48,893 nt of DNA from the NCBI GenBank assembly GCA_035691305.1, contig DASSJF010000054.1:1-48893 (forward strand), given 5' to 3'. Below, one piece after another: positions 13,160 through 17,724 of this stretch (position 1 is its first letter; every line of letters starts with the position of its first letter). A model generated the notes under the pieces. That model saw only the letters and a program-made list of their open reading frames with translations, was not told the DNA's origin and did no database searches. This DNA comes from a bacterium. GTDB lineage: Bacteria > Sysuimicrobiota > Sysuimicrobiia > Sysuimicrobiales > Segetimicrobiaceae. A program made the translations under genes and the position numbers.

Positions 13160-14125
13160 ATGAATCCCATTCCTGCCGTCTGCGATTCACGCGCGAACGG
13201 CGAATCGATCCCCGCCGTCTCGACGGAAGACACGGTCACTGCGATCGGGCTGGCCTTCCTGGCCAACGTCCCGCTTTCGCTGCGCGGCGCCCCGGGAACC
13301 GGGAAAACCTCGCTGCTTCAGTCCATCGCCGATACGTTCAGGTGGCCCATCCACACGATGACGGCGACGATCCACGATGCGACGGATTTTGCCGGACTGG
13401 CGTATCTGTCGTCGAGCGGCTCCCTGGACACCCGCACGATGCGCGCATCCCTGCAGTGGGCCGTCGCCCTCGCCGCGCAGGCGGTGAAGCAGGGCGGCGA
13501 CGGCCTCCTCTTTTTCGACGACATCGCCTACGCGCCGCCGGCCGTGCAGAATGCGCTGCTCCAAATCGTACAACAGCGCCGCGTCGGGGATTTTCAGTTG
13601 CCGCTGGGCATCCGTTGCGCCGCGGCCCTCAACCCCACCGATACCGCGGCGAGCATGCGGGTGCTCACGGCGCCGCTTGCGAACCGGATGGTGCACGTCA
13701 CCTGGGCGCCCGACGCCGACAGTTGGGCCGAAGGATACCTGTCCGGCTGGCGTTTCGTCCTGCCGGCACTCCCCGAAGGCTGGCAGCGCGGTCTTCCCGC
13801 GACGCGGGCAAAGGTGGCCGCGTTTGTCCGTTCGCAGCCGAGTTTTCTTCACTGCGAACCGGCCGACCCAAACGCGCAGGGCTCTCCGTGGCCGTCGGGC
13901 CGAACGTGGGACATGGTGAGCACACTCCTCACCGCCTGCGACGCCGCAGACGCAAACATCAAAGTCCGGTGGCTGCTCACCGCCGGCGCGGTCGGCGATA
14001 GCGCCGCGGCCGCGTACCTGAGGTGGCAACGCGAGGCGGGATTTGTGCAGCCGGGCGGCGATGCGGCGGCCCAGTTCGCCTCGGAGCGGACGACGCGGAG
14101 GCCGGCGCTGCTCACGACGATGTAG
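13160..14125 (+). CDS. MoxR-like AAA ATPase
   Basis: The start is the ATG at 13160, with AGGAG 7 bases upstream; an in-frame GTG at 13088 lies inside an inverted repeat. The 321-residue ATPase has Walker A GAPGTGKT (43-50), Walker B LLFFDD (116-121), a VQNALLQIVQQRRVG helix and a sensor-1 Asn in ALNPTD (about 157-160). It resembles the AAA_5/MoxR group, which remodels or loads cofactors into partner proteins together with a von Willebrand A protein. No VWA gene lies beside it. The next gene is convergent, so it is probably transcribed alone. Confidence 0.82.
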   Translation: MNPIPAVCDSRANGESIPAVSTEDTVTAIGLAFLANVPLSLRGAPGTGKTSLLQSIADTFRWPIHTMTATIHDATDFAGLAYLSSSGSLDTRTMRASLQWAVALAAQAVKQGGDGLLFFDDIAYAPPAVQNALLQIVQQRRVGDFQLPLGIRCAAALNPTDTAASMRVLTAPLANRMVHVTWAPDADSWAEGYLSGWRFVLPALPEGWQRGLPATRAKVAAFVRSQPSFLHCEPADPNAQGSPWPSGRTWDMVSTLLTACDAADANIKVRWLLTAGAVGDSAAAAYLRWQREAGFVQPGGDAAAQFASERTTRRPALLTTM

Positions 14126-14355: not shown

Positions 14356-14850
14356 CTACCAGCCTCCGTTGCCGTAACCGCTGCTGGTGGGCTTGGACGG
14401 TGCGGGGCCGGCGGCGCCCATCTTCAGATCCACCTTTGCGACCCACCACTTGCCGGCGATGCCCTGGCCGTTGGCCTGGTGCGGGGCGGTATCACCGCTG
14501 TACCGGTAGAGCAGGTGCCCGTTGTAGGCGACCTGCTCGCCGTTTGCGGTCTTGACGACGCTCAGCTTGCCTGGAAGCTTGTTTCCCGACGTCGGCGTCG
14601 ACGTGCTGAGCATCGGCGGCCAGATCTGCGCGCACCCGCCGGTGCAGCTGCTGGTGCTCGGTGTATCGGAGCTGACATAGTACAGGGTCATCCCCTTCTC
14701 ATCGGTGAGCACAGTCGCCGACATCCCCTTGACCGTGATCGCCGCGGTATCCACTGTGTACCCGGCCCCGAACGCCGCCACCCCGAGCGCGGCCGCGAGC
14801 AGCACTGCGCCAGCTGCTCCCGCGAGCATCGCCCTCATCCGTTCCGCCAT
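14356..14850 (-). CDS. Secreted COG4315-type repeat protein
   Basis: The ATG at 14850 is chosen because GGAGG lies 8 bases upstream. The 164-residue product has a signal peptide (about 1-30). It carries two copies of the Y-x-(F/Y/W)-x-x-D motif that defines COG4315 secreted proteins. Copy 1 is LYYVSSD (56-62) followed by C69-TGG-C73, then AQIWPP. Copy 2 is LYRYSGD (114-120), then NGQGIAGKWWV. There is no lipobox cysteine, so it is likely a free or surface-bound protein. The tail is Gly/Ser-rich. The function of the family is not established. Confidence 0.85.
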   Translation of the reverse strand: MAERMRAMLAGAAGAVLLAAALGVAAFGAGYTVDTAAITVKGMSATVLTDEKGMTLYYVSSDTPSTSSCTGGCAQIWPPMLSTSTPTSGNKLPGKLSVVKTANGEQVAYNGHLLYRYSGDTAPHQANGQGIAGKWWVAKVDLKMGAAGPAPSKPTSSGYGNGGW

Positions 14851-14932: not shown

Positions 14933-15085
14933 ATGCAACAACCGGACATTGCCGACAGGGGACCGTGCCTTCGTCCCGAACAGCCCGGCCCGATCGCGCC
15001 GTTCTTCCAGGTGCGGGGCGCGAAGATCTGCGCGTACGAAACGCTGTTCGATGCGACGGAGCTGCGAAAACTCGGGGGGAAATGA
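14933..15085 (+). CDS. Small hypothetical protein
   Basis: This 50-codon frame ends two bases before the displaced tRNA fragment. Third codon positions are mostly G or C and the predicted sequence (GPIAPFFQVRGAKICAYETL, then FDATELRKLGGK) has ordinary amino-acid composition, so it may be real. The ATG has no ribosome-binding site, so it could instead be the surviving tail of a gene truncated on insertion. No homologue is recognised. Confidence 0.35.
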   Translation: MQQPDIADRGPCLRPEQPGPIAPFFQVRGAKICAYETLFDATELRKLGGK

Positions 15086-15086
15086 C

Positions 15087-15126
15087 TGGCTCCTCGGGGC
15101 AGGACTCGAACCTGCGACCCTCCGGT
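15087..15126 (-). pseudogene. tRNA 3'-end fragment, possible attachment-site copy
   Basis: Read on the minus strand, these 40 bases give the end of an anticodon stem, a variable loop, an intact T arm (GCAGG TTCGAGT CCTGC), an acceptor 3' strand and GCCA. They match the 3' part of the intact tRNA-Asn at 16309-16383 except for one extra base and one substitution. The 5' half of the tRNA is absent. Such displaced 3' ends commonly mark the far end of an element integrated at a tRNA gene. Confidence 0.75.
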
Positions 15127-15141
15127 AAGACAGGTGACATC

Positions 15142-16272
15142 ATGACGACAATTGGGTTGACGCTTCGCGTCGCGCAGAGGCTCCTGGCGGTCATCAGTAT
15201 CCTGAGTCTGGGGTGCGGGGCGGCAGCGGCGCAGGGCGGTCGGTCGGTGTACCTACCACTGCCATTCAGCGCCGAGCGCCGGGGCATTCAAACCACTGCG
15301 TGCCTGCGCGTGAGCGAATACGTCTACCCGGCGTCTCGGTGGTGGGCGGATGCGGCGGGCAGCGCCACCCCGGCTGAACAGGCGCTCAAAGCCGTCATCG
15401 CGGCGATGCGGAGCAAAGACCGCGCGACACTCTCTCATTTGTCCCACCCGACGCTCGGCCGCGATCCCAAGCGTTTTGACGAACAGGCCGGAGCCTATTT
15501 TCAACAATTCGCGGTCGCGGAGCTCCTGTCGATTCCACGCGGCTACGAATTTGATGGGTTCACGGTGTTCTTCGCGAAGATTCGGCTTGGGGGTCGGACC
15601 GTGTTTGCACCCATGGTCTTCGCGGTCGAAGATGACGGATCGTCCGGCTTTCTTCCTTATCGGACGGACGCGTTGACGTACCGGCTCGTCGCGGATTGGT
15701 TCGGTTCGAGATGGGGACCGGCCGCCGCCGACACCCCGGCCTACTGCACCGGCGACGACGTCGCACGGGCGACCCACAGGATCGCACTCGGAGTATCCTC
15801 GGGCGCCGCGAGGCCGGCGTGGCATCCGAGCCTCTTGCTCTTGCGCGGCGCCTCGTTCGACCGGCCTGGTGCACTCGGCGACCTCGTCAAGCGTACCCGG
15901 GCCGCGCTCGCAAGCCTGCAGTCTACCCTCGTCAGCGGGGACATTGACGCCGCGATGACCCACATGACATCCGAAGGCGGGAGGCGCTTGAAGGAATGGT
16001 TTACGACGGCCGGTCAAGGCGAGCGCCGTCGATACGGGGCCGCGCTCGCCGAACAGCACCCGTTCTTCCTATTCGACATGTCATCGGTCGCCGTCGTCTA
16101 CACGAGGGCCCCCGTCGACGTGCAAGTGCTGTACTTCGCCGCCGATGCCACCACGGCGCCGCTCTGGGTGAACTCTTCCTTCGCCACAGTGTGGGACCAG
16201 GTGTTTAAGAAAGGACCGCTATACGATGCGGCGTCGCAGCGAGTTCCGTTCCAGGGCATCGCGGTCAAATGA
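15142..16272 (+). CDS. Secreted protein of unknown function between tRNA copies
   Basis: The 376-residue protein begins with a signal peptide (hydrophobic about 8-25, Ala-rich cleavage region near 26-30). It has no recognised domain. AGGTGA lies 5 bases before the ATG, within 16 bases of the tRNA fragment. The mature part mixes helices with aromatic-rich strands (VFFAKIRLGGRTVFAPMVFA, ending LWVNSSFATVWDQVF) and has few cysteines. It is the only gene in the stretch bounded by the tRNA fragment and the intact tRNA-Asn, so it may be cargo of a small integrated segment. The two halves of the protein each contain a (G/T)-x-F-F/V-Y strand region, which could be a weak internal repeat. Confidence 0.65.
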   Translation: MTTIGLTLRVAQRLLAVISILSLGCGAAAAQGGRSVYLPLPFSAERRGIQTTACLRVSEYVYPASRWWADAAGSATPAEQALKAVIAAMRSKDRATLSHLSHPTLGRDPKRFDEQAGAYFQQFAVAELLSIPRGYEFDGFTVFFAKIRLGGRTVFAPMVFAVEDDGSSGFLPYRTDALTYRLVADWFGSRWGPAAADTPAYCTGDDVARATHRIALGVSSGAARPAWHPSLLLLRGASFDRPGALGDLVKRTRAALASLQSTLVSGDIDAAMTHMTSEGGRRLKEWFTTAGQGERRRYGAALAEQHPFFLFDMSSVAVVYTRAPVDVQVLYFAADATTAPLWVNSSFATVWDQVFKKGPLYDAASQRVPFQGIAVK

Positions 16273-16308
16273 GCGTCACGCCGGACGATTGAAAACCACG
16301 GGTTTACT

Positions 16309-16383
16309 TGGCTCCTCGGGCAGGACTCGAACCTGCAACCCTCCGGTTAACAGCCGGATGCTCTACCATTGAGCTACCGAGGA
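16309..16383 (-). tRNA. tRNA-Asn (anticodon GTT)
   Basis: All arms fold: acceptor TCCTCGG/CCGAGGA, D arm GCTC-AATGGTA-GAGC, anticodon arm TCCGG-CTGTTAA-CCGGA, 5-base variable loop and T arm GCAGG-TTCGAGT-CCTGC. The discriminator is G and CCA is encoded. The anticodon is GTT, reading Asn codons. The total is 75 bases. Its 3' part is duplicated 1.2 kb away at 15087-15126. Confidence 0.97.
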
Positions 16384-16524
16384 GCGCCGACTATGTGATT
16401 GTAGGAACGACCCCCGCGCGTGTCAATAATACCCGGCCGGGCGCGCCTCACCAAGTCCACCCCGCCACCTGGAGTCCTCCCCATGACCCTCATCCGGGAA
16501 CGTGAACCGATTATTTCAATTGAG

Positions 16525-16530
16525 TATAAT
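16525..16530 (+). promoter_or_regulatory. Consensus -10 box placed for a leaderless start
   Basis: TATAAT is a perfect -10 hexamer ending six bases before the GTG at 16537. Transcription would then begin at or next to the start codon, giving a leaderless mRNA. No good -35 was seen. Confidence 0.5.
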
Positions 16531-16536
16531 GGGCGC

Positions 16537-17724
16537 GTGCGTGACGGAATCGGCCGCCGCGGCCTGCTCGTCTTGTTCCTCGCCATCTTCATCGTCATGA
16601 TGGGGTTCGGCATCGTCCTGCCGGTGCTGCAGTTCTACGCGCGCACCGTCGGCGCGACCCCGCTCCAGATCGGCCTGCTCGCCACGAGCTACGCGGCGAT
16701 GCAGTTCCTGTTCGCGCCGCTGTGGGGCGCGGCCAGCGACCGGATCGGGCGGAAGCCGGTGTTCTCGGTCGGCCTCGTCGGCTACGCCGTCTCGTTCGTG
16801 CTTTTCGGCCTCGCCCACCAGATCTGGCAGCTCTTCTTCGCACGGATCCTCGGCGGCGTGCTGAGCGCCGCGACGCTCCCCACCGCCATGGCCTACATCG
16901 GCGACACGACCTCCGAAGAGCGACGCGGCGGCGGGATGGGGATGATGGGCGCGGCCATGGGCCTCGGGTTCACGATCGGGCCCGGGATCGGCGGGCTGCT
17001 CGGCCGCGCGAACCTCGCCCTGCCGTTCTTCGTCGGGGCGGCGCTCGCGCTCGTCACGCTGCTCCTCAGTTGGGGTGCGCTGCCTGAACCGGCCCGGCAC
17101 CACGACTCTTCCGCCGAGCGCCCGTCGCGCATCGACGCGTTCCGCCTCGCGCTCGGCGGCCCGCTGGCCTACTTCTTCCTCGTCACGCTCGCCGGGGCGT
17201 TCGCGCTGGCCTCGCTCGAGGCCACCTACGCGCTGTTCGCCCAAGACCGGCTGCACCTCACCAGCACGGGCGGCGCCGGGGCGATCGGCGTGGTGTTCGT
17301 CGTCGTGGGCCTCGTGCAGGCGGCGATTCTCGGCGGGCTCGTCGGACGGCTGATCAACCGGTTCGGAGAAGGGCGGCTGACGGTCGGAGGGCTGATTCTG
17401 GCCGCCGCCGGCTACGTGCTGATCACGCAGACGCACACGATCGCGGAGCTGGCCGTCTACGCGGCGATCGCCGGGGCCGGACATTCGCTCATGCGTCCGA
17501 GCATCGCATCGCTGATCTCGAAGCGCACGACGGCCGGTCAGGGCTTCTCCATCGGCATCATGGACTCGTTCGACAGTCTCGGCCGCATCCTCGGCCCCGC
17601 CTGGGGCGGCTGGATCTACCACCTCGGCATCGCGCTGCCCTACGGCTCGGCGGCCGCGGTCCTCGTCCTGACGGCGGCGCTCTCCGGCGCGGCCGCGGGC
17701 CGGCACGTCGCTGCGCGCGCCTAG
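16537..17724 (+). CDS. MFS transporter, TetA-like multidrug type
   Basis: The 395-residue protein has about 12 membrane helices. It carries family signatures in loop 2-3 (GAASDRIGRKPV) and helix 5 (GLGFTIGPGIGGLLG), characteristic of drug:H+ antiporters of the TetA/Bmr group. GTG 16537 is preferred over the ATG at 16483 because the extra codons are AT-rich, the hydrophobic N-terminus begins right after the GTG, and a TATAAT box lies six bases upstream. It follows the tRNA-Asn gene on the opposite strand and leads directly into the DUF4010 gene (4-base gap). The substrate is unknown. Confidence 0.85.
   Translation: MRDGIGRRGLLVLFLAIFIVMMGFGIVLPVLQFYARTVGATPLQIGLLATSYAAMQFLFAPLWGAASDRIGRKPVFSVGLVGYAVSFVLFGLAHQIWQLFFARILGGVLSAATLPTAMAYIGDTTSEERRGGGMGMMGAAMGLGFTIGPGIGGLLGRANLALPFFVGAALALVTLLLSWGALPEPARHHDSSAERPSRIDAFRLALGGPLAYFFLVTLAGAFALASLEATYALFAQDRLHLTSTGGAGAIGVVFVVVGLVQAAILGGLVGRLINRFGEGRLTVGGLILAAAGYVLITQTHTIAELAVYAAIAGAGHSLMRPSIASLISKRTTAGQGFSIGIMDSFDSLGRILGPAWGGWIYHLGIALPYGSAAAVLVLTAALSGAAAGRHVAARA

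Follow-up and report, generated by a model that had tools for sequence, protein, structure and literature searches.

Integration of mobile DNA into tRNA genes by tyrosine recombinases restores the tRNA and displaces a fragment of it, and a crossover centred on the anticodon is one of two common classes (PMC4383910). The tDNA-bounded islands collected by Islander carry the integrase inside the interval and are 2-200 kb long (PMC4383910). At the ssrA gene of Dehalococcoides, att-bracketed DNA without integration or transfer genes has been described, together with relics that were fixed by deletions (PMC3146451). For Segetimicrobiaceae (Ca. Sysuimicrobiota), we found no description of mobile elements, and the main text of a Sysuimicrobiota genome paper that was searched does not contain the words integrase or prophage.

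Here, we describe a segment of 1.2 kb between an intact tRNA-Asn gene and a displaced copy of its 3' half in a genome of this family. The stretch of DNA that was analysed (the window, 48,893 nt) is contig C54 of a metagenome-assembled genome of 3.58 Mb with a completeness of 96%; each species in the comparison is represented by one genome. Like the islands in Islander, the locus has an apparently regenerated tRNA and a displaced fragment that reaches the 3' end, in the same orientation and in the correct order, and its crossover is anticodon-centred, the commoner of Islander's two classes (PMC4383910). Unlike them, it has no integrase in the interval and, with about 1.2 kb, it falls under the 2-kb floor; Islander would reject it. 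Because it does not pass these two filters, we call it a remnant and not an island.

With the cis-mobilisable elements of Dehalococcoides the locus shares att-like direct repeats of the 3' end of an RNA gene, the lack of integration and transfer genes and a hypervariable region on one side of the target RNA gene (PMC3146451). These elements differ in that they have ssrA as target, the T loop as break point and serine recombinases, whereas the window has tRNA-Asn, the anticodon loop and putative att copies (PMC3146451). As far as can be read from the sequence, the unit would have the features of a CIME, i.e. two att-like sites and no integration or transfer genes.

The tRNA-Asn gene and its displaced 3' half

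The features of the locus are as follows:

14356-14850, minus strand: left neighbour outside the putative scar, a Lipoprotein_15 gene (Pfam PF03640; synteny with genomes G002 and G001)
14940-15086, no strand: spacer from the conserved left flank to the fragment, containing the small frame 14933-15085
15087-15133, minus strand: displaced 3' half of tRNA-Asn, anticodon loop through CCA (local score 37 vs a shuffle maximum of 15)
15142-16272, plus strand: cargo gene for a 376-residue secreted protein whose C-terminal part is NTF2-like in the model (open reading frame; lowest GC3; model and fold comparison)
16309-16383, minus strand: intact tRNA-Asn (GTT) (ARAGORN; Rfam RF00005, 74.2 bits)
16398-16426, minus strand: promoter-like site of the tRNA-Asn gene (TTGACA-17-TACAAT, 11/12, consensus match alone)
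16483-17724, plus strand: right neighbour, an MFS transporter gene on the 5' side of the tRNA (Pfam PF07690; synteny)

The complete tRNA-Asn reported in the first-pass annotation was called by both ARAGORN and Rfam, and the sigma-70-like promoter match lies 15 nt upstream of it. Under the canonical mechanism this tRNA would be the regenerated target, and its 3' half (about 16309-16353) would be derived from the element. The fragment is on the same strand, 1.18 kb downstream of the tRNA 3' end. It had been described as a 40-base copy of the T arm and acceptor strand with one insertion and one substitution. The copy is real and its orientation is as described, but it is longer: the homology covers 47 nt, from the anticodon loop (CTGT..) to the CCA, with 43/45 tRNA bases matching. 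The 40 nt at 15087-15126 are the cleaner core (95% identical), and the full 47 nt contain two 1-nt insertions and two substitutions. For comparison, 60 shuffled versions of the 2.3-kb region reached local scores of at most 15, and the opposite strand reached 12. When the whole assembly was searched for copies of the fragment, the sole comparable one was the tRNA-Asn itself; all other matches had at most 31 nt at 87%, as the T arms of other tRNAs would give. An origin from another tRNA was rejected, since Asn matches best.

A repeat of this length is able to mislead a short-k assembly, and the locus is known from a single contig of a metagenome assembly. It is conceivable in principle that unrelated DNA was joined where the tRNA 3' half recurs over 40 nt, but we consider this very improbable: the two copies are not identical and are therefore separable by exact words, and both flanks consist of genes native to the genus, arranged as expected.

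Between the tRNA and the fragment there is a single gene, the cargo gene. Its open reading frame is intact, with an ATG start 8 nt from the fragment and an AGGTGA just upstream. No integrase, excisionase or arm-like repeat was found in the 1.2-kb interval. That an integrase is missing, as had been noted before, thus holds for the interval, in which the only gene is without Pfam match, and for the whole of C54, which gave no match to PF00589.

The site in related genomes

In the genus mate G002, the Lipoprotein_15 gene and its upstream region are followed by 67 bp and then by a single intact tRNA-Asn, whose 5' flank is as in the window; there is neither a fragment nor a secreted-protein gene. 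Judged by sequence, this is the empty, uninterrupted site. The first-pass annotation had suggested looking for a strain that lacks 15127-16308 and has one intact tRNA-Asn, and G002 is such a genome, with the tRNA next to the same neighbour region. The G002 contig ends 186 bp past the tRNA, and the right gene block is thus off the contig. On the left, homology of the window to G002 extends to about 14939, and the spacer 14940-15086 could not be aligned with the 67 bp at this place in G002. The small frame in this spacer had been expected to be joined to the tRNA in an empty-site strain. This is not the case in G002, and the frame as a gene was rejected: no convincing relatives turned up (best foreign E 0.07), G002 lacks a counterpart, and the frame is therefore probably not a gene.

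The second genus mate, G001, has kept both flanking blocks, with other genes in between and no fragment at the locus. On the 5' side of the tRNA the MFS gene opens a block that is syntenic across Segetimicrobiaceae; with the exception of G002, the eight other family genomes compared at this locus all have the same MFS-led block, G003 with an additional gene. The 3' side of tRNA-Asn, in turn, varies from genome to genome among these eight. Possible degenerate fragments downstream of the tRNA-Asn in G001, G002, G005, G006, G007 and G009 scored at shuffle level. The gene order fits a native 3' flank beyond the fragment and DNA of the element beyond the intact tRNA, but the short flanks after the tRNA and after the fragment do not convincingly align with relatives. 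The best match, of the window's tRNA flank to G002, is weak (p about 0.05) and, if real, would be opposite to the canonical model.

A larger insert at the same tRNA

Genome G004, of the same family, has a 48-bp copy of the tRNA-Asn 3' half that is broken at the same loop and lies 21.8 kb from the tRNA. Just inside this copy is a C-terminal remnant of a tyrosine integrase (C61:54731-54868; PF00589, 36 bits, above cut-off). The genes outside the copy, for an FAD-oxidoreductase, a response regulator and a kinase, are those that G007 and G009 have on this side of tRNA-Asn. This is a better-preserved case at the same tRNA. It resembles the window in the target, in the break point and in the 3'-half copy facing the native flank; it differs in its size, in the integrase remnant, in a paired TGCTACC repeat and in having no secreted-protein gene of the window kind. 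The DNA between the tRNA-Asn and the copy (G004:C61:54547-76365, i.e. L036 4548-19901 plus L037 1-6465) carries transporter genes.

A further, isolated copy of the tRNA-Asn 3' half is present near a contig end in G001 (C141; L038 205-305). It also starts at the anticodon loop and, from its sequence, looks like an attP or an attP relic. In about 550 kb of DNA examined, the paired TGCTACC repeat stands at two independent sites, one in G004 and one in G001:C141, and nowhere else; at both, it comes 30 nt after a tRNA-Asn 3' half. These repeats are possibly arm sites of an integrase; the window has no such pair. Directly behind the CCA, a stretch of about 20-50 nt is common to G001, G003, G004, G005, G006 and G007, from four genera (ATCAAG.CTTTCC.GCG), and the DNA beyond differs. 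This stretch may be a native trailer or an element-borne, common element end, and the G001:C141 copy favours the latter.

These copies bear on another explanation, according to which a second tRNA-Asn gene arose by tandem duplication and decayed until the fragment was left, the secreted-protein gene having arrived or been carried independently. A single tRNA-Asn gene copy suffices for the cell, and the differences between fragment and tRNA are what a decaying copy would show. However, no 5' half is found nearby, two tRNA-Asn genes at the locus were seen in no relative examined, the G004 copy has an integrase remnant beside it, and three copies in the family (the fragment, G004 and G001:C141) share the break at the anticodon loop. 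We regard a second tRNA gene as highly unlikely and rejected it on account of the missing 5' half and the common break point.

Properties and relatives of the cargo gene

The first-pass annotation had seen a signal-peptide protein with no recognised domain in the cargo gene. In line with this, the protein has no family match in Pfam, NCBIfam or PHROG, and its N-terminus is a signal-peptide-like stretch, as read by eye from the sequence. AlphaFold modelled the protein with moderate confidence (pLDDT 65). Residues 242-356 of this model, and this part only, resemble NTF2-like proteins, with VIA Z scores that reach 8.6 for alignments of about 97 residues; the N-terminal part is modelled with a similar helix-then-sheet order. 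Foldseek with the model gave nothing below E 0.001 (best E 0.039). A role of the cargo in ligand binding would be compatible with an NTF2-like domain in a secreted protein.

The GC3 of the cargo gene (0.764) is the lowest of the 36 genes in the window (mean 0.900, SD 0.040). The second-lowest value belongs to an AAA-ATPase gene at 13160-14125, which G002 lacks at this position, the two neighbouring genes there being separated by 18 nt.

Of the 43 genomes of the order, three have the cargo gene, at two loci altogether. Besides the window, it was found in two Segetimicrobium genomes at a different locus, where its neighbours are genes for cation efflux and for a 5'-3' exonuclease; two of the Segetimicrobiaceae genomes are those of Terrabacteria group bacterium ANGP1, now Candidatus Segetimicrobium genomatis. 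Relatives outside the order are found in three Rokubacteria genomes and, as a truncated copy, in one Omnitrophota genome; clearly, the spread across phyla is patchy. The truncated copy (L083 5013-5348 and 5359-5570) lies directly ahead of a tRNA-Pro, of which a 29-nt piece from near the anticodon loop repeats 104 nt downstream (score 21 vs 18 as the best of 200 shuffles).

A tree of the cargo gene preferred a grouping of the window copy with the Segetimicrobium copies (support 0.976), and the alternative topologies gave AU p-values of 0.024 and 0.008 with only 1000 resamplings. By identity, the Segetimicrobium copies had seemed nearer to that of Rokubacteria AR41 (61%) than to that of the window (57%), which this tree did not bear out. 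Since the window copy groups with the family's other copies and not with Rokubacteria, import of the gene by the element is not demonstrated. Values of dN/dS against the two Segetimicrobium copies are about 0.26-0.28 and indicate purifying selection; as dS is >1, this is a rough measure.

A dN/dS well below 1 would also be expected of a minimal passenger without integrase that is still moved in trans between tRNA-Asn sites by elements using the same anticodon-loop site, in a cis-mobilisable or satellite-like manner, and it is in keeping with such a unit that two att-like copies enclose exactly one intact gene. Several findings speak against it. The assembly has no other copy of the tRNA-Asn 3' half and therefore no co-resident element with this core, and the fragment has accumulated its insertions and substitutions. 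None of the full-length cargo relatives is beside a tRNA in the flanking DNA examined, and neither the cargo nor the att core turned up in viruses (IMG/VR), phages or plasmids. A passenger that is still mobile thus appears highly unlikely.

Probable origin of the segment

In our view, the segment between tRNA-Asn and the displaced 3' half is likely what remains of an integrative element that targeted the tRNA, with a single cargo gene surviving. This is based on an intact tRNA and a displaced 3' half that is correctly placed and oriented, with a break in the anticodon loop, on the empty site in G002 and the variability on the 3' side of the tRNA only, and on the atypical composition of the cargo gene together with the larger insert and its integrase remnant at the same tRNA in G004. 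What counts against it is the absence of integrase, excisionase and arm repeats, the short flanks without convincing alignment and the cargo tree. The integration scar proposed in the first-pass annotation is thus supported by the empty site and by the fuller event in G004. Among the three options offered there, a decayed element is the best supported; for a unit relying on an outside integrase and for a satellite there is no positive evidence.

The course would have begun with a recombination, at the anticodon loop, between the tRNA gene and a tyrosine-recombinase element that bore a copy of the tRNA 3' half. The element's own 3' half would then have restored a whole tRNA, and the original 3' half would have been displaced outward. 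Later deletions would have taken the integrase and nearly everything else, leaving 1.2 kb with the secreted-protein gene, which selection seems to retain. The acting integrase, the original size and the order of the losses are parts of this account that we infer.

The remnant is an example of a cargo gene that outlived its element. It does not change the understanding of tRNA integration; the scar is of an ordinary type, here in a little-studied group of uncultured soil bacteria. With it, tRNA-Asn is documented as a hotspot of integration in Segetimicrobiaceae. These genomes also have integrase genes close to tRNA-Gly, tRNA-Ala and tRNA-Pro. The window's own genome has a tyrosine-integrase frame with one TAG within about 1 kb of a tRNA-Gly (ccc) (L053, G000:C8), and the integrase locus of G002 (L049) also contains a tRNA-Gly.
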